DNA of 28,970 bases, from the IMG/VR virus record IMGVR_UViG_3300044633_000266, positions 1-28,970 of that record; one strand, given 5' to 3'. The translations under genes and the position numbers were made by a program. The stretch comes from a virus. Below, piece after piece: positions 2,022-23,259 of this stretch (positions are counted from its first letter, which is position 1; each line of letters starts with the position of its first letter). The notes under the pieces are model-generated. The model ran no database searches, had not been told where the DNA came from, and saw only the letters and a list, made by a program, of their open reading frames with translations.

Positions 2022-2561
2022 ATGACCGAGAAGAAAAAGCCCGTGGCCGGGGAAAAGCAGGCCGCGCCAAAGAAGCCAACAGGACGACCCTCCACCTACA
2101 ACCCTGACATTGCACGCCAGATGTGTGAGCAACTCAGTGAGGGGATACCACTGAGGGAGATATGCAGACAGGAGGGGTTCCCCATGTGGAGGACGGTGTA
2201 CCTGTGGATGGCGAAAGACCCCGACCTAAATACAGCCATCGCACGCGCCCGTGACGTGGGATATGACGCCATGGCCGAGGAATGCCTCGACATCGCCGAC
2301 AACGCTGCCAATGACTGGATGGAACGGCTGGACGCCGAGGGCGTGCCTGTGGGCTGGCAAGTCAACGGGGACAGCATCCAGCGCTCCAAGCTGCGGATCG
2401 AGACCCGACTGAAGCTGCTGGCGAAGTTCAACCCAAAGCGCTACGGTGACAAGATCGTCCACGCCGGGGATGACGTGAACCCGGTGGTGATCGAGAACAA
2501 CCACAACGTCTTCGGGGAGCTGCTCAAGAACCTGAAGATGAAAAGGCAGGCCGAGCAGTGA
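2022..2561 (+). CDS. terS: Terminase small subunit
   Basis: A 179-aa protein with the usual features of one phage small-terminase type. It has a basic disordered start, then GRPSTYNPDIA at about residues 26-36, leading into a helix-turn-helix (about 37-70, PLREICRQEGFPMWRTVYLWM). A central helical oligomerisation region follows, and it ends in RLKLLAKFNPKRYGDKI and a polar tail. Small terminases recognise the packaging site on concatemeric DNA and form a ring that regulates the large subunit. The immediate downstream neighbour is terL, which supports the call. An AAAGGAC ribosome site lies at 2009-2015. The gene ends at 2561, directly against a 17-bp palindrome. Confidence 0.85.
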   Translation: MTEKKKPVAGEKQAAPKKPTGRPSTYNPDIARQMCEQLSEGIPLREICRQEGFPMWRTVYLWMAKDPDLNTAIARARDVGYDAMAEECLDIADNAANDWMERLDAEGVPVGWQVNGDSIQRSKLRIETRLKLLAKFNPKRYGDKIVHAGDDVNPVVIENNHNVFGELLKNLKMKRQAEQ

Positions 2562-2562
2562 A

Positions 2563-2579
2563 TACTAGTCGGACTAGTA
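2563..2579. repeat. Dispersed palindrome, copy 1 (between terS and terL)
   Basis: The sequence is TACTAGTCGGACTAGTA, a perfect inverted repeat around a single central G. With its flanks, 22 bases (2561-2582) are identical to copy 4 at 12114-12135. It fills the whole gap between the terS stop and the terL ATG, and leaves terL with no recognisable ribosome site immediately upstream. Confidence 0.9.
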
Positions 2580-2580
2580 A

Positions 2581-4014
2581 ATGAGCGTCGCCCTCGACAT
2601 CCTGCTGGACGAAGAGACCCAGAAGGAATACAGCGCCCTGAGCGCCTACCAGCAGGCGGCGTTCAACTGGCAGTTCAAGTGGCTCAACGAGCAGGCGCTG
2701 AAGCACCAGATCGAGCCTGCCGGGGATTGGTGGAACATCTGGCTGCTGCTGGCTGGCCGTGGGGCTGGAAAGACCCGTGCGGCTGCCGAGACGCTGGCTG
2801 GCTGGGCCATGGAGGAGCCGAACACCCGCTGGCTGGTGTCCGCCCCCACGTCCGGCGACTTGAAAAGCACCTGCTTCGAGGGCGAGTCAGGCCTGCTGAA
2901 GGTCATCCCACCCCTGCTGATCGCCAAGTACAACTCGAGCCTGCACGAGATCACACTGGTCAACGGCAGCCTGATCAAGGGCATCCCGGCGTCCGAGCCT
3001 GAGCGCTTCCGGGGTCCGCAGTTTCACGGGGGCTGGCTGGACGAGTTGGCCGCATGGGAGTACCTGCGCGAGAGCTGGGACATGATTATGTTCGGCATCC
3101 GTCTGGGCACCCGCACCAAGCTAATCTGCTCGACCACACCCAAGCCCAAGGACGTGGTGATGGAGCTGATCGAGCGTGAGGGTGACGACGTGGTGATCAC
3201 CCGGGCCAGCACGTACAGCAACATCAAGAACCTCGCGCCGTCCTTCCAGAAGCAGATTCTCCAGTACGAGGGCACCAACCTCGGGCGGCAGGAGATTCAT
3301 GCTGAGATCATCGACCCGGAGGAGGGCGGCATCGTCAAGCGCGACTGGTTCCGCCTCTGGCCTGCCAACAAGCCCTTCCCCAAGCTCGAGTTCATCATCC
3401 AGTCCTACGACTGCGCAACCAGCGACAAGACCATCAACGACCCCACCGGCAGCATCACGTTCGGCGTGTTCAAGCCCATGGACGGCGGCATGTGCGTGAT
3501 GATCCTCGACTGCTGGCAAGAGCACCTGCAGTACCCGGACCTGCGCCCCAAGGTGATCGACGAGTTCGAGACGGTCTACGGTGAGGGCCGGGACAAGAAG
3601 CTGGTGGACGTGGTGCTGGTCGAGGACAAGTCGGCTGGCATCTCCCTTATCCAAGACTTACAGCGTGCCCACCTGCCGGTGATCGCCTACAACCCGGGCC
3701 GAGCAGACAAGGTGCAGCGCCTGTCCATCGTGGCGAACATCATCAAGGCTGGCCGTGTCTGGGTGCCTGAGTCGTCCGTGCGCAAGGGATACGTCAGGGA
3801 CTGGGCCGAGGGCATGGTCTCGCAGATATGCAGCTTCCCCGAGGGTACGGTGCACGACGAGTTCGTTGACTGCATCAGCCAAGGCCTGCGGTACCTGCGT
3901 GACGCTGGCTGGATCAGCATCGACGCACCGCCACGCGAGGACATCGAGCAAGAAGACATCACGGATGCCGAGATATTCAACATGAAGGGACGGGCCAACC
4001 CGTATGGCGCGTGA
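2581..4014 (+). CDS. terL: Terminase large subunit (packaging ATPase and nuclease)
   Basis: This 477-aa protein is a standard-length large terminase. The ATPase domain has Walker A GRGAGKT at residues 59-65, Walker B around LDE 153-155 (GGWLDELAAW), and a coupling-like TTPKPKD motif soon after. The RNase H-like nuclease domain has acidic residues at the expected spots: D277 (YDCATSDK), E348/D349 (VEDKSAG) and D426/D430 (HDEFVDC). It pumps DNA through the portal into the prohead and cuts the concatemer. The start at 2581 directly follows a palindromic repeat, with no Shine-Dalgarno in the usual window. Translation may rely on the AGG-rich end of terS (2541-2550) or on coupling. Two more repeat copies follow the stop. 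Confidence 0.95.
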   Translation: MSVALDILLDEETQKEYSALSAYQQAAFNWQFKWLNEQALKHQIEPAGDWWNIWLLLAGRGAGKTRAAAETLAGWAMEEPNTRWLVSAPTSGDLKSTCFEGESGLLKVIPPLLIAKYNSSLHEITLVNGSLIKGIPASEPERFRGPQFHGGWLDELAAWEYLRESWDMIMFGIRLGTRTKLICSTTPKPKDVVMELIEREGDDVVITRASTYSNIKNLAPSFQKQILQYEGTNLGRQEIHAEIIDPEEGGIVKRDWFRLWPANKPFPKLEFIIQSYDCATSDKTINDPTGSITFGVFKPMDGGMCVMILDCWQEHLQYPDLRPKVIDEFETVYGEGRDKKLVDVVLVEDKSAGISLIQDLQRAHLPVIAYNPGRADKVQRLSIVANIIKAGRVWVPESSVRKGYVRDWAEGMVSQICSFPEGTVHDEFVDCISQGLRYLRDAGWISIDAPPREDIEQEDITDAEIFNMKGRANPYGA

Positions 4015-4031
4015 TGCTAGTCAGACTAGTA
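4015..4031. repeat. Dispersed palindrome, copy 2 (after terL)
   Basis: The sequence TGCTAGTCAGACTAGTA abuts the terL stop. The inner 13 bases (4017-4029, CTAGTC-A-GACTAG) are perfectly palindromic, and one outer A is changed to G. The 17-mer is identical to copy 5 at 21312-21328. Confidence 0.88.
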
Positions 4032-4042
4032 AGTAGAAACCC

Positions 4043-4061
4043 GTACTAGTCAGACTAGTAC
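4043..4061. repeat. Dispersed palindrome, copy 3 (after terL)
   Basis: The sequence GTACTAGTCAGACTAGTAC is the longest perfect copy, with 9-base arms around a central A. It lies 29 bases after copy 2 in the gap between terL and the next gene, just upstream of that gene's ribosome site (GGAG at 4067-4070). Confidence 0.9.
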
Positions 4062-4295: not shown

Positions 4296-4346
4296 TGGCC
4301 GCTGTACCGATTGCCCTTCAGTGCCACCCACGGGCATAATTCGGTC

Positions 4347-7300
4347 ATGAAGCCAACACAACCCACCGCCGAGCAGATGCTCGAAGAATTGCGCAACAAG
4401 GCCGTCGGCCCCAAGGAGTCATTCGACCCCATCGGCACGGCCAAGCGCAACCTGACCGGCATGTACGAGACGGCCAAGCGCATTCCCGGCAACATCCAGC
4501 GCATGGTGCAAGACCCGGTGGCCTATGCCAAGAGCATCCCCCCGGTGACCGGCGACCAGATCATGAACGCATTCGGTCCGGGCAACGTAGGCATGGCTGG
4601 CATCATGATCGGCCCCAAGGCCAAGACGTGGGACGTGGAAAGGGCATACAAGGCTGTGCAGATGGAGCACGCTGGCGCAAAGCCCGAGGAAATCTGGGCA
4701 GCGACTGGCACCTATCGTGGCCCTGAGGGCAAGTGGCGTCAGGAGATTGACGACAGCAAGGCTGTGCACCGCATGCCCTACGAAATCAAGCAGAAGGCGG
4801 CGCAGCTGGCAGAGCAGCAGGCCATGCTCAAAGCTGTGGTCAGAGAATCGCTGGCCCACGGCAAAGAGGTGGTGTCGGACCTATTCCCCAAAGAGGCCAC
4901 AGCCGCACGCAGGGACGTCAGGCAGCATGTCTCCAACATCGACGAGGAGCTGGGCGGCAACTATGGGCTGGGTCAAGACCCACGCCTGCGCGGCAACCTC
5001 ATGAAATACGGCTATGAGCACCCAGAGCTGTACGCAGCCTATCCCGAGCTGGAGAGGCATGTCTTTCGTCAAGGTGACAAAGGTGGCCCCGGCGTGCTGG
5101 GATCGCAAGAAGGCGTAGGCATTGACCTGTACTTGGAAGGCCTCGCGCAGAAGAACCCCGGCAGCACCGTGGCGCATGAGCTGCAGCACGCCATCCAGCA
5201 GATCGAGGGCACGCCCCGTGGCGGCAACACCTATGAGTTTGCTGTGACGAAGGCGCAAGCCGAAAACATGCTCAAGGGGCACAACGACGCCCTGTCTTAC
5301 ACGGCAAACCGCATTGATGAAGCGACCGACCCAGCAATCAAAGCGGACTTGCGCAAAGTCTATGACGAGTTGCTGCAAAAAAGAGAGGCCATTTCGCCAT
5401 ATGTCTCAATCGACCCATACCAAGAGTATCGAAAGCTGGGCGGAGAGGCGGAGTCACGGGCGGTGCAAGAGCGCCTGAACATGACGCCAGAGGAGCGTGC
5501 AGCCAAGTTCCCGCTAAGCTCATACGACGTGGACCCAACACAGCTGCGACTGCTGGACCAAGGGGAGCGGCTTGACATCAACAAAGCGGAAGGCGGCGCA
5601 GTGAACACACCAAGCATGGCCCAGATGAAGCTTGCACTCAACAAGCAGGGCATGTACTCACCGCTGGAGAAGGCTGCCATGGCTGTGCCACGCACCAAGG
5701 GCACGCCTGCCGAGTTCATGGCCGAGGCCAGCAAGCAGCCCGGGTTCCGCAAAGAGGAAGTGGCCGACCGCAAGATTGGCCTGCCTGAGCAGAAGATGAC
5801 CAAGGACGAGTTCCTGACTCACCTCAAGGGCCACGCATCGCCCAAGCTGATCGAGAAGGTCATTGGTGGCGACGACGAAGAGAACGAAGAGAACGGCTAC
5901 ACCCAGTACGAAGAGTACAAGCTGCCCGGTGGCACCAACTACCGTGAGGTGCTGCTGAAGACGCCATCGTTCCCCGAGAGCAAGGTCAGGCAGATCATGG
6001 AGTTGGAGTCCAACATCCGGCGCATGGACCCAGCGGACTATCCCGATGGCTACGTGCAGAACATGATCAATGGCGTGGCAAAGCTCAAGGCCGAGAAAGC
6101 TGCCATGGGCGACAACTACCAGTCAAGCCACTGGAGCGATGACCCCAACGTGCTGGCCCACATGCGCCTGAGTGACCGCTTCACACCCGGCAAGTACGGC
6201 GAGTTCATTGTGCAAACGACGAACAAGGGAAAGCCCAAAACATTGCTGTCCACTGGCACCAAGGGAACTCTTGAGCAGGCCGAGGCGTTTGCTCAGAAGA
6301 TGCGCGACCAAGGCCAAGAGGTCATGGTCAACCAAGTCGGTCCCGGCGTAGATGGCAAGAAGCTGCTGCACGTTGAAGAGATTCAATCGGACTGGCACCA
6401 GCAGGGTCGCAAAGAAGGTTACAAGGACTCGGCAAAGGCGGAGCAACACAAGGCACTTGAAGACCGCATTCAGAAGTTGCGCGACGACTTTGCAAATGAT
6501 CGTGCGCCAGAAAATCAGATCAGAGCAGAAATGATCAGCCTACGCCGACAGCAGGAAGCATTGGGCAACACTGACAACCGCATGGCCGTGCCTGACGCCC
6601 CGTTCAAGAAGTCGTGGCACGAGATGGCGATGAAGCACATCCTGAGCCACGCAGCCAAAAACGGATATGACGGCGTGGTGATCACCCCCGGGCAAGAGCA
6701 GGCGGACCGGTACGACCTGAGCAGGCACATTGACCGCATCGACTACAGCCAAAACGAAAACGGCACGATCAACTTCTCTGGCGTGAAAAACGGCAAAGAG
6801 GTGATGTCGCAGGAAAACATGCAGCCTGACGCCCTGCACCAGATGGTGGGCAAAGACCTTGCCGCCAAGATGATCAATGACGAGGGCAGTGCCCTTGCGC
6901 AACCAGCGGACCGATGGGAACCCGAAGACTCGGCTGCACCCGCATTCAAGTCCCTGTCCGGTGTCGATCTAAAGATTGGCGGCGAAGGCATGAAGGGCTT
7001 CTACGACAAGATCGTGCCCGACTACCTGAACAAGCTTGGCAAGCCCCATGGCGCTCAGGTCACCAAGATGGAAATCAAAACACCGAAGGCCGACCAGCCA
7101 GCATCAGGGGGCGAGATGGCCGAGGCTTTGAAGATGCCATGGGAAGAGTTCGCATCGCACCCTGACCGTCCACAATTGGAGAAGAAGTTCTGGGATATGC
7201 AGAGGAATGCGACCACGCCATTGCACTACTTCCCCATCACCGACAGCCTGCGCCAGCAGATCAAGAACGAAGGCCTCCCCCAATACCAAATGGGTGGCAT

Positions 7301-9575
7301 CATCAATAAAGCCGAAGGAGGCAACGTGCAACCATCAATAGCCCAAATGCGAATGGCTCTGACCAAACAGAACCCGCTCAGTATGCAGAACATCGGCGTC
7401 AACGAAGCCCCGGGCATGTCGCCAAAGATGTTCGTGTCGCCGGACAAGGGCGCAGGCTCGAACCTCCCACCACCCGGTGGTGTCGACTTGGACCTCCGCC
7501 AGCCGGGTCAGCAGCTCATGACTGCACCACCGCATGCCCCTGATCAGACGGGCGCAGCAGCCCTCGCAGCTCCTCAGGGTGGCCCAGCCCCTCAAGGTGG
7601 CGGCAACATCCTGCAAATGACCCCTCAGGGCCGCGCAATGGGTGCGATGGGTGGACAGCGCCCACCAGCTGGCCCCGGCATGCCTCAAGCACCCGGCATG
7701 GCAAAGGGCGGCTCGGCCAAGTCGGTCGACGAGATGAAGGCTGAGTTGGCCGCAAAGGACACCAGCCAAGACAAGCGCGTCACCATCAAGGCTGAAGGCT
7801 CTGGCGGCGTGAAGGGCATCGTGGTGCCCCGCCACACACTTGAGGGCAACGCCAAAGTCGGTGCCGTGGGCCTGCACGAGATGAACGAGGCACGCGCCAA
7901 GGTCTACGGTGACGAGCACCGTGAGCCTATGACCCTCAACAAGATCGCTCAAGCGCACCGCGACACACTCAAGGAGCACTTCGCCAAGCCGGTGGAAGAG
8001 CAGCAGGCAGCAGAGGCAGCCGCGCTCAAACGTCTGCGTGAAGCCAAGCACTTGGGTGCCACGGCCAACACGTTGGACGAGTCCGAGAAGATGGACACCG
8101 TGCGCCATGAGCGCGACGAGCAGGGTCGCACACACATTGGCTTTGCGTCGAAAGGTGTGGCAGGCCACGCCCTGTACACATCCGGCAAGGGCAAAGACAC
8201 CAAGTACCACGTCATCAACACCTGCCCCGGCCAGACTGAGGGTTGCGGTGGCGGCAAGGATGCCGAGGGCATCGTGGACACCAAGAAGGGAACCTGCTTC
8301 GCACCCAACGCTGAGTCGCAGTACGCTGGCGCTGCAACACGCCGTGCAGCCCACGAGCAGGCCAAGCACGATCCCAAGATGACGAACGACTGGATACTGG
8401 CCCACACCGGGTCTCTCCGCAACGCTGCACGCTTGGCAGACAAGGGCAACCAGCGCTTGTTGTTCCGCCCCAACGTGGTGGACGAGACCGACGTGTCCTC
8501 GCGCCACGCCATCCGTCACCTGAACGAGCAGCGCAAGGAAGATGGCAAGCCACCGATCATCGCCAACTCCTACGGCAAGACCAACGAGCTGCACGATCCC
8601 GAGAACGGCTACTACGTGACCCACTCGAACGTCGGCCCCAAGGTCAAGAAGGGCCAAGAGATCAGCGAGAACGTCGGGCGCGACAAGGCGCGTGTGCGCA
8701 ACACCATCATGGCTGCCGACAACAAGGGCGACTTCAAGAACGAGCAGGGCAACAATACGCCACCCAAGGGTTCGTACATGGTCACCGACGTCAAGCGAGG
8801 CTCACCCTTGGCTCAGAAGATGGAGAAGTCCATCACGCACGCCAAGTACTGGACCACTGGCCGCGCAGAGCATGAGTTGACTGCCGACGAGAAGGCAGAG
8901 GGTCCAGAGGGCCACTTCGGCGGCAACGGCAAGCCCACCACGCCAGAGAAGGCCCACTACGGCCACACAACCGTGGGCGACAAGCGCTTCGATTACCAGA
9001 AGCAGCATGTCCTGCACCCACGTCTGGTTCAAGTTGGCAACAACAAGGACGGCACACCGCACATGATCCCCACCGATTCACGGTTCAAGGACGAAGAGTT
9101 CTTGCCCAAGAATCGCTTCAAGACCAAGAACGGCAAGGACGCCGGTCACATCTTGATGACCACACCTACCGAGTCGACCAGCAACATCGGCCACCAGACA
9201 TCGTTCACGCACAACGTGAGCGACAAGCACATCGAGCACGCCCAAAACAACAACGGCGAGTACGAAATTGACAAGCCGGAAGACCAGATCAAGGCTGCAG
9301 GCAAGGAATACACCGCACCACAGTCCATCAAGTTTTATGCCGACGGCGGCAACGTCAAGTACGCTCCACGCCATCATGGCCTGAGCCACGACGACTTCCA
9401 TGCGTTCCCAGAACAGAACCTGTCCGCCCAGCGTCACTTGGCTATGCGCGGCCATGACCATGAGAAGTCCCAAACTTCAAGTTTGCCTTATCATGCAGGG
9501 GGCAAAAAGGCTGTTGTCGTCCACAAAGACATGGACACAATGCGCCTTGAAATGACCAAGAAAAAGGCCAAATGA
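4347..9575 (+). CDS. Giant multi-domain polyvalent-type protein
   Basis: About 1742 aa from ATG 4347; an in-frame TTG at 4311 is possible, and neither has a clear ribosome site. Residues about 90-410 are peptidase-like, with HELQH at 277-281 (HExxH zinc motif) and a downstream GGEAESR at 365-371 that could supply the third ligand. Residues about 470-985 carry phrases typical of phage and conjugative-element polyvalent proteins: EEIQSDWHQ (677-685), VVITPGQEQADRYDL (777-791), GMKGFYDKIVPDYL (881-894) and FPITDSLRQQI (962 on). A Pro/Gly/Gln-rich linker follows (about 1010-1115). The C-terminal 600 residues are Lys-rich with Cys1293, Cys1300 and Cys1317. KAEGG or related motifs sit at 413, 988, about 1118 and 1663. 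Polyvalent proteins are known as multi-effector proteins thought to travel with the DNA into the host; the place beside the portal fits. The exact biochemical role is unproven. Confidence 0.75.
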   Translation: MKPTQPTAEQMLEELRNKAVGPKESFDPIGTAKRNLTGMYETAKRIPGNIQRMVQDPVAYAKSIPPVTGDQIMNAFGPGNVGMAGIMIGPKAKTWDVERAYKAVQMEHAGAKPEEIWAATGTYRGPEGKWRQEIDDSKAVHRMPYEIKQKAAQLAEQQAMLKAVVRESLAHGKEVVSDLFPKEATAARRDVRQHVSNIDEELGGNYGLGQDPRLRGNLMKYGYEHPELYAAYPELERHVFRQGDKGGPGVLGSQEGVGIDLYLEGLAQKNPGSTVAHELQHAIQQIEGTPRGGNTYEFAVTKAQAENMLKGHNDALSYTANRIDEATDPAIKADLRKVYDELLQKREAISPYVSIDPYQEYRKLGGEAESRAVQERLNMTPEERAAKFPLSSYDVDPTQLRLLDQGERLDINKAEGGAVNTPSMAQMKLALNKQGMYSPLEKAAMAVPRTKGTPAEFMAEASKQPGFRKEEVADRKIGLPEQKMTKDEFLTHLKGHASPKLIEKVIGGDDEENEENGYTQYEEYKLPGGTNYREVLLKTPSFPESKVRQIMELESNIRRMDPADYPDGYVQNMINGVAKLKAEKAAMGDNYQSSHWSDDPNVLAHMRLSDRFTPGKYGEFIVQTTNKGKPKTLLSTGTKGTLEQAEAFAQKMRDQGQEVMVNQVGPGVDGKKLLHVEEIQSDWHQQGRKEGYKDSAKAEQHKALEDRIQKLRDDFANDRAPENQIRAEMISLRRQQEALGNTDNRMAVPDAPFKKSWHEMAMKHILSHAAKNGYDGVVITPGQEQADRYDLSRHIDRIDYSQNENGTINFSGVKNGKEVMSQENMQPDALHQMVGKDLAAKMINDEGSALAQPADRWEPEDSAAPAFKSLSGVDLKIGGEGMKGFYDKIVPDYLNKLGKPHGAQVTKMEIKTPKADQPASGGEMAEALKMPWEEFASHPDRPQLEKKFWDMQRNATTPLHYFPITDSLRQQIKNEGLPQYQMGGIINKAEGGNVQPSIAQMRMALTKQNPLSMQNIGVNEAPGMSPKMFVSPDKGAGSNLPPPGGVDLDLRQPGQQLMTAPPHAPDQTGAAALAAPQGGPAPQGGGNILQMTPQGRAMGAMGGQRPPAGPGMPQAPGMAKGGSAKSVDEMKAELAAKDTSQDKRVTIKAEGSGGVKGIVVPRHTLEGNAKVGAVGLHEMNEARAKVYGDEHREPMTLNKIAQAHRDTLKEHFAKPVEEQQAAEAAALKRLREAKHLGATANTLDESEKMDTVRHERDEQGRTHIGFASKGVAGHALYTSGKGKDTKYHVINTCPGQTEGCGGGKDAEGIVDTKKGTCFAPNAESQYAGAATRRAAHEQAKHDPKMTNDWILAHTGSLRNAARLADKGNQRLLFRPNVVDETDVSSRHAIRHLNEQRKEDGKPPIIANSYGKTNELHDPENGYYVTHSNVGPKVKKGQEISENVGRDKARVRNTIMAADNKGDFKNEQGNNTPPKGSYMVTDVKRGSPLAQKMEKSITHAKYWTTGRAEHELTADEKAEGPEGHFGGNGKPTTPEKAHYGHTTVGDKRFDYQKQHVLHPRLVQVGNNKDGTPHMIPTDSRFKDEEFLPKNRFKTKNGKDAGHILMTTPTESTSNIGHQTSFTHNVSDKHIEHAQNNNGEYEIDKPEDQIKAAGKEYTAPQSIKFYADGGNVKYAPRHHGLSHDDFHAFPEQNLSAQRHLAMRGHDHEKSQTSSLPYHAGGKKAVVVHKDMDTMRLEMTKKKAK

Positions 9576-12028
9576 TGTCAGACCAAACGCAAGACAATTA
9601 CCCGATTGAAGAGCAAGAAGACGGCAGCGCTGTCGTTGATCTTCCCGAGATTGAAACGGAAGAGCAGCCCGACGGCTCGGCCATCGTTCAATTGGATGAC
9701 GGCCCCGAGTTCAACCCTGACTTCTACGACAACCTCGCGGACTCGATTGATCAAGGCACCCTGACATCCCTGTCGTTCCGGTACCTTGACCTGCTGGAGA
9801 CCGACAAAGAGGCGCGTTCACTGCGCGACAAGCAGTACGAAGAGGGCATCCGTCGCACCGGCATGGGCAACGACGCCCCGGGTGGCGCGACGTTCATGGG
9901 CGCATCCAAAGTGGTGCACCCCGTCATGGCCGAGGGCTGCGTTGACTTTGCATCCCGGGCCATCAAAGAGATGTTCCCGCCAGACGGCCCAGTCAAGACC
10001 AAAGTGCTTGGCAAGATGGACGACGACAAAGCGGCCAAGGCAGAGCGCAAGCGTGACTACCTGAACTGGCAGATCACTGACCAGATCGAAGAATTCAAGG
10101 ACGAGCAAGAGCAGCTGTTGACCCAGCTGCCTCTGGGCGGCTCCCAGTACTTCAAGATTTGGTTTGATGACCAGAAGAAGCGCCCGTGCGTGGAGTTCCT
10201 GCCCATCGACCGGGTGATCCTGCCATTCGCTGCCACCAACTTCTACACGGCCCAGCGTGCCGCTGAAGTGCACGAGTTGACGCAGTACGAGTTCGAGCGC
10301 CGCATCCGCACTGGCATGTACCGCGACATCAGCTACGTCAAGGCCAGCCAGACTCTCGACCAGAACAAAGTCGAGCAGGCCAACAACAAGGTCGAAGGCA
10401 AGCAGTTCGAGGACAACAAGGACGGGCTGCGCAAGGTCTATCACATCTACACCTACCTTGAGCTGGAAGACGACAACCAAACCAAGGGCGAGATGGCCCC
10501 CTACATCCTCATGGTCGATGAACTCGACAACGAGGTGGTTGGCCTGTACCGCAACTGGGAAGAGCAAGACGAGACCATGACCAAGCTGGACTGGGTCGTC
10601 GAGTTCAAATTCATCCCATGGCGCGGCGCATACGCCATTGGCTTGCCTCACCTCATCGGCGGTCTCAGCGCGGCCTTGACGGGCGCTCTGCGTGCCTTGC
10701 TGGACACTGCGCACATCAACAACTCGGCCACGATGCTGAAGTTGAAGGGCGCGAAGATCAGCGGCCAGAGCCAGCAGGTTGACGTCACCCAGATCATCGA
10801 GATCGAAGGCGCACCCGGCGTGCAGGACATCCGCCAGATCGCCATGCCCATGCCGTTCAACCCGCCAAGCCCAGTGCTGTTCCAGCTGCTGGGTTGGCTG
10901 GACAAGGCAGCCAAGGGCGTGGTCACCACCAGCGAAGAGAAGATCGCCGACATCAACGCCAACGCCCCGGTGGGCACCACGCAGGCATTGATCGAGCAGG
11001 GCGCTGCGGTGTTCTCTTCGATCCATGCACGCATGCACGACTCGCAAGCCCGTGTGCTGAAGATTCTGTGCCGACTGAACCGCTGGCACTTTGACGAGAT
11101 GCAAAAGGGTGACGTTGTCGCCGACTTGGAAGTCACTCGCAATGACTTCGCCAAGAACACCGATGTGGTGCCTGTGTCTGACCCTCACATCTTCAGTGAG
11201 ACGCAGCGTATGGCCCAGATTCAGGCCGTCATTGCACGTTCTGACAAGCACCCCGAGCTGTACAACGCCAAGGCCGTGGAAGAGCGCCTGCTCAAGCAGA
11301 TGAAGGTCGCCAACATCAACGAGTTGCTCAAGGACGCACCAGCGCCGGAGCAGCGCACATCGGCGGACGAGAACGCAGCCTTGCTGATCGGCCAAGCCGC
11401 CTACGCCTACATCCAACAGGACCACATCGCGCACATTCAGGACCACCTGCAGTTTGCGATGAACCCGTTCTTGGGCCAGTCGCCGTTCGCCGACCCGAAC
11501 TACATTGGCAACTTGATCGAGCACCTCAAGCAGCACATGACGCTGTGGTACCTGAACCGCTCCAACGGCTATGTGGAGCAGTCGATGGGCAAGCCTGTGG
11601 ACGACTACGACCACCCAGAGTTGACCTCCACCATCGACAAGGTCTACACGACCGTGGGCGCTCATGTGATGATGGACACCGAAGAGGTCTTCGGGCAGTT
11701 CCAGCAAGCCCTGCAAGCCCTCGTGCAGATGGCCGAGCAGCGCAAACAGCAAGGTCAGCAGCTGCCTCCAGATGCTCAGGTGGTCAAAGACACCAGCATG
11801 GCCGAGACACAGCGCAAAGCCGCCAAGGATCAGGCCGACAACCAGTACAAGCAGGTTAAGCTGCAGCAGGAAATGCAAGAACACCTCGACGACAATCGGA
11901 CCAAGGTTGACATCGAGAACTCAAAATTGACGCACGAGACCATTCAGAATGTCGCTCAAGCTCAATTCCCTGCGGCATCCGCCGCTTTCGACATGCCACC
12001 TCAAGGAGAACCAAATGGCAACATCTGA
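9572..12028 (+). CDS. Portal protein
   Basis: An 818-aa protein, in the size range of large podovirus-type portals (P22/N4-like scale). After an acidic N-terminus it has a long mixed domain with KEMFPPDGPVKTKVLG and LLTQLPLGGSQYFKIWFDD, a core around GAYAIGLPHLIGGLSAALTGALRALLD (a likely tunnel-lining helix region), and a Gln-rich coiled C-terminal barrel-like segment (about 700-800). The dodecameric portal forms the DNA entry vertex and docks TerL and the connector. Its position after terL and before scaffold and capsid supports the call. It overlaps the giant gene by 4 nt (start 9572 or 9575). Its N-terminus carries the phrase DGSA-x-V twice (residues 17-22 and 34-39), also present in the scaffold-like protein. 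Confidence 0.85.
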   Translation: MMSDQTQDNYPIEEQEDGSAVVDLPEIETEEQPDGSAIVQLDDGPEFNPDFYDNLADSIDQGTLTSLSFRYLDLLETDKEARSLRDKQYEEGIRRTGMGNDAPGGATFMGASKVVHPVMAEGCVDFASRAIKEMFPPDGPVKTKVLGKMDDDKAAKAERKRDYLNWQITDQIEEFKDEQEQLLTQLPLGGSQYFKIWFDDQKKRPCVEFLPIDRVILPFAATNFYTAQRAAEVHELTQYEFERRIRTGMYRDISYVKASQTLDQNKVEQANNKVEGKQFEDNKDGLRKVYHIYTYLELEDDNQTKGEMAPYILMVDELDNEVVGLYRNWEEQDETMTKLDWVVEFKFIPWRGAYAIGLPHLIGGLSAALTGALRALLDTAHINNSATMLKLKGAKISGQSQQVDVTQIIEIEGAPGVQDIRQIAMPMPFNPPSPVLFQLLGWLDKAAKGVVTTSEEKIADINANAPVGTTQALIEQGAAVFSSIHARMHDSQARVLKILCRLNRWHFDEMQKGDVVADLEVTRNDFAKNTDVVPVSDPHIFSETQRMAQIQAVIARSDKHPELYNAKAVEERLLKQMKVANINELLKDAPAPEQRTSADENAALLIGQAAYAYIQQDHIAHIQDHLQFAMNPFLGQSPFADPNYIGNLIEHLKQHMTLWYLNRSNGYVEQSMGKPVDDYDHPELTSTIDKVYTTVGAHVMMDTEEVFGQFQQALQALVQMAEQRKQQGQQLPPDAQVVKDTSMAETQRKAAKDQADNQYKQVKLQQEMQEHLDDNRTKVDIENSKLTHETIQNVAQAQFPAASAAFDMPPQGEPNGNI

Positions 12029-12170
12029 TCAAGAACAAAAGGGCGTCAACGTGCCCCAGCACAAGCGTCTCGCCATGGGTGAGAAGCTGGACGGCCAGTC
12101 CATGAAGGGCGGAAATACTAGTCGGACTAGTAAATCCTCCGGTGGCCTGTCGCAAGCCAAGAAAAAATGA
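12015..12170 (+). CDS. Small basic hypothetical protein carrying a palindrome copy
   Basis: A 51-aa protein starts at ATG 12015 with a strong AAGGAG at 12003-12008 and overlaps the portal end by 14 nt. It is polar and basic (MATSDQEQKGVNVPQHKRLAMGEK near the start, ending SQAKKK). Palindrome copy 4 lies inside the gene and encodes N-T-S-R-T-S-K, placed between two Gly-Ser-rich stretches, so the insertion kept the frame. The last base pairs overlap the next start by 4 nt. The function is unknown; being beside the portal hints at a minor head role, but this is a guess. Confidence 0.65.
   Translation: MATSDQEQKGVNVPQHKRLAMGEKLDGQSMKGGNTSRTSKSSGGLSQAKKK
12116..12132. repeat. Dispersed palindrome, copy 4 (inside a coding gene)
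   Basis: TACTAGTCGGACTAGTA is a perfect inverted repeat around G. It is identical to copy 1, including two flanking A on the left and AAT continuing on the right. It is read in frame within the small gene after the portal. Confidence 0.9.
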
Positions 12171-12382: not shown

Positions 12383-12421
12383 ATAACGATGCACCTGCAA
12401 TATGGTGTCAAGGAGAGAGCG

Positions 12422-12877
12422 ATGAGTGAGAAAGAGAAAATCCCAACAATTGACGGCGCTGCGCAAGTATCGGACCCTCAAGAGTTGGCGTGGGCGTTTC
12501 CAGAAGTCAATCCCGGCCAAGTCCCCTTCGGTGGGCGCGTGATTGTCCAGCTGCGTCGAATCAAAAAGACGTCTGGCCGGATCATCATCGTGGATGAGAC
12601 CAAGGAAAACGAAAAGTGGAACAACATGATCGGCAAGGTCGTGGCTTTTGGCCCTCTGGCCTACAAAAACCGCGACACGATGCAGTCTTGGCCTGAAGGC
12701 AGCTGGGCGCAGGTCGGAGATTTTGTCCGTGTGCCACGCTGGGGCGGTGATCGCTGGGAACGACGTGTCCCGGGCGAGGAATCAACCGAAGACCCCGTGC
12801 TTTTCATGACCATCAACGACCACGAATTGATTTCGCGGATCACAGATGACCCACTTTCATTCAAAGCCTACGTTTAA
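12422..12877 (+). CDS. GroES-like co-chaperonin
   Basis: A 151-aa protein from ATG 12422 with a strong AAGGAG site. Residues about 34-138 follow the Cpn10 pattern: an opening strand VPFGGRVIVQLRRIKKTSGRIIIVD, a turn with GKVVAFGPLAY, then WAQVGDFVRVPRWGGDRW, and a closing strand VLFMTINDHELISRI like the end of GroES (open, reactive beta ladder). The region between residues about 46 and 70 would hold the mobile loop. It has about 30 extra N-terminal residues. Known phage examples are T4 gp31 and its relatives, which replace GroES so that GroEL can fold the larger capsid protein. The position upstream of the scaffold and capsid genes fits that role. No GroEL is present. I am fairly but not fully sure of the family. 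Confidence 0.65.
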   Translation: MSEKEKIPTIDGAAQVSDPQELAWAFPEVNPGQVPFGGRVIVQLRRIKKTSGRIIIVDETKENEKWNNMIGKVVAFGPLAYKNRDTMQSWPEGSWAQVGDFVRVPRWGGDRWERRVPGEESTEDPVLFMTINDHELISRITDDPLSFKAYV

Positions 12878-20820: not shown

Positions 20821-23259
20821 ATGGCACAAGTAACGATCACACAACTCCCGCAGGCGAGTGCCTTAACTGGCAATGAATCAGTTCCAATCGTCCAGAACGG
20901 CGTGACGGTTCAGACGACCACGAGCGCAATTTCAGGTGCTGGTGCACTCAACTACCCGTTCCTCACTGTGGGCACGGCAGCAGGCCTCACACAGGGCAGA
21001 TACCTGTCGACTGGCGCTGGCCTGTCCTTGGATGACAACGGCCCGGGAAACACCCTTGAAATCACAATGGATGGTGCCGCATCGTCATTGAACGGCAGCA
21101 GCACCGGCATTGTCGTCAAGACCGCGCCAAATACGGTCACAGGGCGCTCTTTGGCGGTTGGGTCAGGCTTGAACATCGCCAATGGAAACGGTGTCTCTGG
21201 CGACCCCACAGTCAGTCTCGGGACGTTCTTGAGCAACTTTGTGAGCCTGACCGGCACCAGCATGCTGTCGATCCAGTCCGGCACGGTCGCCAAGGTCAGC
21301 CTGCTTCAGGTTGCTAGTCAGACTAGTATTTCGAACGGGGACGGCTCCGGCAACGTCACGATTGGCTTGGCCGACGACCTGATTGTCCCCGGCTCCGGCA
21401 GCATAACCGCGCCAAACGGCACGACGATTGAAAGAAGCGGCGGCACGGGAGCATTCCGCTACAACACCAGCCTTCAGCAGTTCGAGGGCTTCACCAACAC
21501 GGGCTGGAACCAGTTCTCGCTGACTGGTGGCGTGACCTCTTTCAGCGCTGGCGTGACCGGCTTCAGCCCAAACACCGACACCACGGGCGCGGTCACCTTG
21601 ACTGGCATCCTGAACCCGGCAAGCGGCGGCACAGGCGTCAACAACGGCACCCAGACCATCACCCTTGGCGGTAACGTGGTCACGGGCGGCGCGATGACGA
21701 CTGCGGGAACCTTGACGACTGCAGGCAACTTCACGACGTCCGGAGCATACGCCCTCACCCTGACCACCACAGGGGTCACCAACGTCACGCTGCCAAACTC
21801 TGGCACGCTGGTGACGCTGTCGGGCACAGAGACGCTCACGAACAAGACAATCAGCGGCGCAAGCAACACGCTGACCAACATCGCCAATGCCAGCCTGACG
21901 AACTCCTCGATCACTCTTGGCACCTCAACAATTGCCTTGGGCGGCACAGAGCTGGCCCCGGTAGGCCTGACATCGGTCACTCTGACGCAAAACCCCGTGT
22001 CGGCCCTGCAAGCGGCCACAAAGCAGTATGTGGACACTCTGGTGTCTTCAGGCATCACCTATCACGCACCGGTCAAGTACGAGGTTCCCGGAGGCAATCT
22101 CACGGCCACCTACAACCAGCCCGGTGGCCCGGGTGTGGGCGTGGGCGCAACGCTGACCAACGCAGGCACCTTGGTGGCCTTCACTCCTGATGGCGTGGTG
22201 GCATCTGTCAGTGACCGCATCCTGATCTACAACCAGACCAACCAGTTTGAAAACGGCGTCTACGTGGTCACGACGGTGGGTAACGGCTCCACACCTTGGG
22301 TGCTGACTCGAGCAAGCGATGCAGACACCTACGCCCTCAAAGACCCCAACGGCTTGGGCAACGGCGACGCATTCTTCGTCACCTCAGGCAACACTGGCGC
22401 TGGCGAGACCTACGTCTGCAACACGGTCGGCGTCATCACGTTTGGCACCACCGCGATCACATTCGCTCAAATCTCTGCATCGCAGGTCTACTCAGCAGGC
22501 ACCGGCCTGACGCTGTCTGGCACGCAGTTCAGCATCAGCAACACAGCGGTGACTGCCTCGTCGTATGGCGGCGCAAGTTCGGTGGCGACGTTCACCGTCA
22601 ACGCTCAGGGCCAATTGACTGCAGCAGCGACAACGGCGATTGCCATCAACGGCAACCAGATCACATCCGGCACCGTTGGGTCTTCGTACATCACTGGCTC
22701 CTACACCGGCATCACAGGTGTTGGGACTTTGACGGCTGGGACATGGAACGCAGGCGTGATCGGCGTGGACTACGGCGGCACCAGCTTCGCCTCGTACACG
22801 GTCGGCGACATGATTTATGCCTCGGGGGCCACGACGCTGTCAAAGCTCGGGATCGGCACCAACGGCTACGTCATGACCTCCAACGGGTCCGCTCCAACAT
22901 GGTCGGCTCAGTCAACGCTTTCAGTTGGCTCGGCCACAAACCTCTTGGGCGGCTCACAGGGCGGGATTGCTTACCAGTCCGGCACCAACCTGACGACATT
23001 CTTGTCGCTCGGAGCATCGGATTACGTCTTGACGGCTGGCGCTACAGCACCCCAGTATGTGGCGCAGTCAACTCTGTCCGTGGGCAGCGCGACAAACGCA
23101 ACCAACACAGCGGTCACTGTAGACACAACAAATGCAACCAATTACTTGACTTTTGTCTCAGGCACTACCGGGAACTTGCCTCAATTGGTAAACTCGTCGA
23201 TAACTTGCAACCCAAGCACCGGAGCCATGACAGGCGGGATTGCTGGCGGTTCTTTCTAA
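20821..23259 (+). CDS. Tail fibre protein with palindrome copy 5 in frame
   Basis: An 812-aa, Gly/Thr/Ser/Asn-rich beta protein from ATG 20821, one base after the upstream stop; an upstream in-frame ATG at 20761 lies inside the previous gene. The N-terminus MAQVTITQLPQASALTGNES is like virion-attachment ends of fibres. Fibre repeats include GTGVNNGTQTITLGGNVVTGG, TLTNKTISGASNTLTN (341 on) and TKQYVDTLV (400-408). Two tandem units of about 52 residues share QSTLSVGSATN, near 697 and 749. Residues 165-169 (ASQTS) are the translation of palindrome copy 5. It is probably a trimeric receptor-contact fibre. I see no C-terminal intramolecular chaperone. Confidence 0.75.
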   Translation: MAQVTITQLPQASALTGNESVPIVQNGVTVQTTTSAISGAGALNYPFLTVGTAAGLTQGRYLSTGAGLSLDDNGPGNTLEITMDGAASSLNGSSTGIVVKTAPNTVTGRSLAVGSGLNIANGNGVSGDPTVSLGTFLSNFVSLTGTSMLSIQSGTVAKVSLLQVASQTSISNGDGSGNVTIGLADDLIVPGSGSITAPNGTTIERSGGTGAFRYNTSLQQFEGFTNTGWNQFSLTGGVTSFSAGVTGFSPNTDTTGAVTLTGILNPASGGTGVNNGTQTITLGGNVVTGGAMTTAGTLTTAGNFTTSGAYALTLTTTGVTNVTLPNSGTLVTLSGTETLTNKTISGASNTLTNIANASLTNSSITLGTSTIALGGTELAPVGLTSVTLTQNPVSALQAATKQYVDTLVSSGITYHAPVKYEVPGGNLTATYNQPGGPGVGVGATLTNAGTLVAFTPDGVVASVSDRILIYNQTNQFENGVYVVTTVGNGSTPWVLTRASDADTYALKDPNGLGNGDAFFVTSGNTGAGETYVCNTVGVITFGTTAITFAQISASQVYSAGTGLTLSGTQFSISNTAVTASSYGGASSVATFTVNAQGQLTAAATTAIAINGNQITSGTVGSSYITGSYTGITGVGTLTAGTWNAGVIGVDYGGTSFASYTVGDMIYASGATTLSKLGIGTNGYVMTSNGSAPTWSAQSTLSVGSATNLLGGSQGGIAYQSGTNLTTFLSLGASDYVLTAGATAPQYVAQSTLSVGSATNATNTAVTVDTTNATNYLTFVSGTTGNLPQLVNSSITCNPSTGAMTGGIAGGSF
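21312..21328. repeat. Dispersed palindrome, copy 5 (inside the tail fibre gene)
   Basis: TGCTAGTCAGACTAGTA is identical over 17 bases to copy 2 after terL, with a perfect 13-base core palindrome (21314-21326). It is read in frame (codons 165-169) in the fibre gene. Confidence 0.9.

Follow-up and report, generated by a model that had tools for sequence, protein, structure and literature searches.

Why should a terminase gene be surrounded by palindromes? The question is raised by a 28,970-base viral record, here called the window, which holds five copies of ACTAGTCNGACTAGT with zero to one mismatch each, three of them adjoining terL. The copies belong to a class of odd-centred palindromes of 13–19 bp, and their arm is the only palindromic one that occurs more than once in the window. 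A search for 13-base matches with up to three mismatches returned 15, compared to a shuffle mean of 5.7, and none of 100 shuffles reached 15; the five exact copies are far beyond chance.

The gene terS, encoding an Sf6-type small terminase (2022–2561, + strand), and terL (2581–4014, + strand) were assigned with Pfam and PHROGs, as was the portal gene. All five putative operator copies are given without strand. Copy 1, TACTAGTCGGACTAGTA (2563–2579), fills the 19-base gap between the terS stop (TGA, 2559–2561) and the terL ATG. Copy 2, GCTAGTCAGACTAGT (4016–4030), lies two bases past the terL stop, a place shared by relatives with several arm spellings (dialects), and is followed at a centre-to-centre distance of 29 bp by copy 3, GTACTAGTCAGACTAGTAC (4043–4061). 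The spacer between both post-terL palindromes, AAGTAGAAACCC (4031–4042), is conserved across dialects in several phages. Copy 4, again TACTAGTCGGACTAGTA (12116–12132), encodes TSRTS within a 51-aa open reading frame (ORF; 12015–12170) overlapping the portal gene at its end, a place common to MW202545, G002 and G013. Copy 5, GCTAGTCAGACTAGT (21313–21327), encodes ASQTS within the tail-fibre gene, 501 nt past the end of the upstream gene, and its position is kept in five relatives representing three dialects. The coordinates and the near-exact matches bear out the preliminary description, which had counted five copies with three flanking terL and had placed copy 1 in the terS–terL gap and copies 2 and 3 behind the terL stop.

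That description had also held that copy 1 took the place of the terL ribosome site, and had judged the sequence to be compatible with insertion into a formerly coupled junction. Deletion of 2562–2580 does yield the terS TGA directly followed by the terL ATG. A four-base overlap of terS and terL (ATGA) is found in 47 relatives; copy 1 is absent from all of them, and 46 lack a Shine–Dalgarno sequence as well. The palindrome was, therefore, added to a coupled junction and displaced no ribosome site, so that the idea of insertion fits copy 1 and that of replacement does not. Copy 1 is an additional site particular to one lineage, set into an ATGA overlap that is ancestral and had no Shine–Dalgarno sequence to begin with. 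The same copy is present in L008; L041 carries a palindrome of another dialect directly before terL, an independent case. We saw no sign of the suggested exchange of terL as a cassette; instead, sites switch dialect together across the genome.

For comparison, we collected 80 viral loci by terL, and 15 contigs that are complete or present in large part. The nearest named record, MW202545.1, is an uncultured 57-kb phage (Manatee Spring) with ~81% identity over half of the query, and the Caulobacter phages RW, KcrB, RLK and GB2A are only distantly related (42% in terL). Relatives were also found in Burkholderiales assemblies. Sequence was sufficient for 79 of the terL loci, and in 55 of these an odd palindrome with arms of at least six bases lies within 110 nt past the terL stop, versus 3% of random windows from the same loci. 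Symmetry is kept while the arms vary among phages (CTAGTC, CTAATC, CTAGTT, GTAGTC, GTAATC, GGAATC, GGAGTC and others). Each genome keeps to one dialect, whose arm is the sole repeated palindromic one in 13 of the 18 contigs examined; it is missing from RW, G003 and G016. Scanning viral contigs for the exact motif returned mostly single chance matches.

The palindromes also keep their positions. Approximately 15 related phages carry them at the same codon-exact places in differing dialects: after terL, often in tandem, with 29 bp from centre to centre in 22 of 29 neighbouring pairs; in the small ORF, ~99 nt beyond the stop of the portal gene; within the tail-fibre gene, 501 nt past the upstream gene end (504 nt in G005) in the window, MW202545, G001, G005, G007 and G010; at the extreme 3′ end of an HNH-like gene of ~90 aa; and inside a gene of ~270 aa annotated as ‘parB-like’ in MW202545. 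Because the peptide encoded at the tail-fibre site changes with dialect (TSQTS/ASQTS, SSQTT or TNQIS), it is the DNA motif and not the peptide that is conserved. Random mobile palindromes were ruled out by this codon-level conservation of position. Apart from the post-terL sites, most have no recognized promoter nearby.

The ~270-aa product provides a candidate for the protein that would read these sites. It matches the PHROG ParB-like partition protein (phrog_1033, E = 1e-16), and a profile search returned PDB chains of sulfiredoxin and ParB. A structure model with a mean pLDDT of 82 retrieved ParB (2.7e-7), Noc (1.3e-6) and RK2 KorB (8qa9; 1.2e-5) in Foldseek. PHROGs, profile search and fold were all needed, since Pfam alone gave almost nothing (ParB_N only at 0.08) and returned no KorB-family match up to E = 1. 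The model comprises an N-domain with the ParB/sulfiredoxin fold, the N-terminal fold of the ParB/Noc superfamily, followed by helix–turn–helix (HTH) helices at 121–128 and 132–139, a further helix at 141–165, a disordered stretch at 168–190 and a C-terminal region (192–267) of two long helices, which is read as a probable coiled coil. The codons that hold the palindromes fall within the disordered stretch or adjoin it. As box II (GFHRY[HF]A) is closer to sulfiredoxin than to classical ParB, CTP use by the protein seems doubtful. In relatives, the gene lies about 18 kb upstream of terL, and the window fragment ends before it; from these relatives and from its own CTAGTC sites, we infer that the window phage carries the gene as well.

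Of the 80 ParB-like loci taken from viral contigs, 65 have an odd palindrome in codons 138–186, the disordered-linker region; with arms of at least six bases, the count is 62 of 80, versus 4.7% of random 144-nt windows. The remaining 15 homologues have no odd palindrome in the gene, and some have even-centred ones. Such palindromes, GTGGAAGCGCTTCCAC and GTGGTAACGTTACCAC, again inside the gene, occur in L287 (708, 747, 10495, 10528 and 18587), L304 (7648 and 7690) and L305 (10442 and 10484), whose proteins have the helices VSHTF or VSHPF. G003 (L284) encodes a ParB-like protein with a VSHTL helix and has no clear repeated palindrome in the gene or genome; in this phage, TGTAGTTAACTACA stands after terL.

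We computed mutual information for every alignment column against every site base using 50 dereplicated proteins, and the peaks fell in the DNA-binding domain. Base −3 pairs with residue 133 (z = 17.2, next 6.9), base −5 with residue 132 (z = 11.2) and base −1 with residues 151 and 155 (z = 13.5 and 11.7), while base −4 peaks with 133 and base −6 with 122 and 132. An A at −3 accompanies P (23), K (3) or H (2) at residue 133, and a G accompanies S (19) or T (15), a rule followed in 62 of 63 cases with one exception. Two natural homologues whose HTH differs mainly at this residue are those of MW202545, with S and the site CTAGTC, and of G006/L244, with P and the site CTAATC. At residue 151, K, R or N goes with C at base −1, V, I, M or L mostly with T, and D with G. 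Site and HTH are linked in one gene, yet linkage alone gives no consistent code over many changes: when the HTH and linker columns were left out of the tree, residue 133 and base −3 changed 15 times each, and each of the six independent pairs with good support conforms (sign test, p = 0.03). Independent pairs were too few for the same test of −5/132 and −1/151. Outside the ParB-like gene, we found 26 further sites in the genome’s own dialect versus 0.44 expected for a foreign dialect, and the sites in the ParB-like gene and the terL area agree in dialect in the nine contigs that hold both. A handful of residues in the ParB-like protein thus appear to predict the arm spelling, and the computed covariation points to recognition of the palindrome by a central HTH, as in the ParB/Noc superfamily. 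In ParB and Noc, residues 173 (R/Q) and 201 (G/R) read outer and inner bases (PMC7383237); judged by the motif around a conserved serine, the counterparts in the phage protein would be residues 132 and 151/155.

The post-terL sites have a further neighbour. Downstream of copies 2 and 3, a conserved sigma-70-type promoter, TTGCCC-18-CATAAT (4311–4340, + strand), fronts the structural operon. Of 74 loci, 41 have the motif G[GC]CATAAT no more than 450 nt from terL, and the stricter form GGCATAAT is present only once or twice per genome (six genomes counted). In all 29 loci with both elements, the palindromes are upstream of the late promoter, a placement that suggests that they take part in late-gene control. 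Directly upstream of the ParB-like gene, 64 of 78 loci carry a strongly conserved gene for a 66-aa YdaS-type HTH protein. Also in this part of the window, the terL–portal interval encodes a 1,754-aa protein with an LPD23 (polyvalent) domain (4311–9575), which measures 890 aa in MW202545 and 1,931 aa in G004 and is absent in RW. The structural region further contains a gene for a GroES-like co-chaperonin (12389–12877), also annotated in MW202545 and RW.

We consider it likely that the palindromes are specific loading sites (operators) of an orphan ParB-family regulator encoded by this phage group. Computed support comes from the site family, its positional conservation, the covariation of dialect and helix, and the fold; binding, clamp formation with nucleotide use, and repression of the late promoter are what we infer. 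A dimer would read both half-sites through its HTH, with residue 133 directed at bases −3 and −4, 132 at −5 and −6, and 151 and 155 at −1. Each genome would provide three to eight such sites, at least one of them inside the protein’s own gene. By analogy to KorB of RK2, the protein probably loads as a nucleotide-dependent clamp and then spreads, which may silence or time distant promoters; the most likely target would be the promoter of the structural operon, which is conserved and closely follows the post-terL sites. The preliminary description had named a regulator binding site controlling terminase levels among its options. Its direction was right, as the sites are operator-like and the phages encode a ParB-like protein, but the cause concerns neither terL nor packaging in particular. 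It had also set the case of relatives with palindromes elsewhere and none at terL against a role tied to this gene; we found many sites elsewhere, with terL sites also present. Overall, the earlier interpretation is partly supported.

Could the same protein bind the same sites to organize the genome or to mark self DNA, in a partition-, compaction- or exclusion-like role, and not to regulate transcription? The sites occur genome-wide, several in coding sequence and away from promoters, and close relatives differ in dialect as incompatibility or immunity groups do. However, the most consistent site sits just upstream of the structural promoter, a ParA-type ATPase (PF13614) was detected in none of 20 genomes, and the ParA-binding motif [LFI]G[KR]G[LFI] was absent from all 80 ParB-like proteins. 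Considering these absences together with a tyrosine integrase in only one of the 20 genomes, most of these phages are unlikely to use partition or ordinary integration, and we regard an organizing or marking role as possible though somewhat unlikely. A transcription road-block acting at sites in co-directional operons, as with the stoperators of cluster A mycobacteriophages, seems less plausible still. Stoperators are likewise dispersed in transcribed regions, with a cognate dialect for each phage (PMC6550527), but those known are asymmetric and oriented with transcription, whereas the sites described here are palindromic and few, and the single integrase gives no sign of lysogeny.

Two further explanations would dispense with the ParB-like protein, and we judge both highly improbable. 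A pac or cos packaging signal recognized by TerS, the pac-like option of the preliminary description, would account for the three window copies that adjoin terL; most sites lie elsewhere, though, at several conserved places far from this gene, and the dialect follows the ParB-like helix. Moreover, Caulobacter phage RW (MK929790.1) has a 2,940-bp direct terminal repeat (1–2940 and 59423–62362) that ends inside the N-terminal piece of terL, without palindromes or a ParB-like gene. The RW terL is split in two, with a methyltransferase gene between the pieces. Equally hard to credit are RNA hairpins, serving as terminators or processing sites, and mobile palindromic elements: the predicted stems have 7–8 bp and −5.6 to −9 kcal/mol, and copy 1 does look inserted, but there is neither a coding-strand T-run nor an Rfam match, the arms covary with the protein helix, and positions are kept across dialects. 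Among other candidates, a TrpR-like operator with ACTAGT half-sites was rejected since other dialects lack ACTAGT, GANTC/CcrM methylation since GANTC occurs in only some dialects, and N4-type hairpin promoters as a poor fit, with arms that track the protein helix.

For an orphan ParB-family regulator, the closest known mechanism would be, by analogy, that of KorB, a ParB-family clamp of RK2 that loads at OB, slides and silences distant promoters (PMC11790492). The phage palindromes are similarly dispersed and in part promoter-distal. Further parallels are the ParB-family fold, a regulator role that is presumptive on the phage side, and a nearby gene for a small HTH partner, KorA in RK2 and a YdaS-type protein in the phages. 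In contrast to KorB/OB, the phage proteins have no KorB Pfam match, YdaS is not KorA, and the sites lie inside coding genes, including the protein’s own, with diverse dialects. With ParB/parS and Noc/NBS, the phage system shares the architecture of N-domain, HTH and C-terminal dimer, and the arrangement in which the outer-base residue stands just after the recognition-helix Ser and the inner-base residue 20–28 positions further (PMC7383237); it differs in lacking ParA and the ParA motif, in its sulfiredoxin-like box II and in its odd-centred sites of 13–17 bp with many dialects. Phage-encoded ParB-CTPase-fold proteins without ParA are described in a survey (PMC12704722), which, in the portion available to us, covers folds, fusions and nucleotides and, for these phages, mentions neither operators nor scattered sites nor a recognition code. 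Cluster A stoperators are comparable in their many dispersed sites and a phage-specific consensus that matches the phage’s own protein, but they are asymmetric and oriented and serve a monomeric, non-ParB repressor in temperate phages (PMC6550527, PMC9283540).

Orphan phage ParB proteins are common, while their DNA sites are apparently undescribed; we found no account of phage ParB operators in the open-licence literature. The present data point to a likely late-gene control system in an abundant uncultured phage group. With about 20 dialects, the natural protein–site pairs open the evolution of DNA-binding specificity in the ParB/Noc/KorB family to direct tests. More speculatively, and we would not expect it to hold, the scattered loading sites, which extend into structural genes and the protein’s own, may form a fast-changing identity code of an orphan clamp in a large aquatic phage group, set by a few amino acids and with genomes switching dialect in concert. 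Co-infecting relatives would then be invisible to one another, as different immunity or incompatibility groups are. ParB-like homologues also occur in bacterial genomes (L331, L333, L334, L340, L347, L349, L370, L378 and L387), many of them of Planctomycetota, where long perfect palindromes of 15–27 bp, mostly with other arms, stand just behind the HTH codons (~codon 140). The Planctomycetes chromosome CP087563.1 encodes more than ten ParB-like paralogues with such palindromes.
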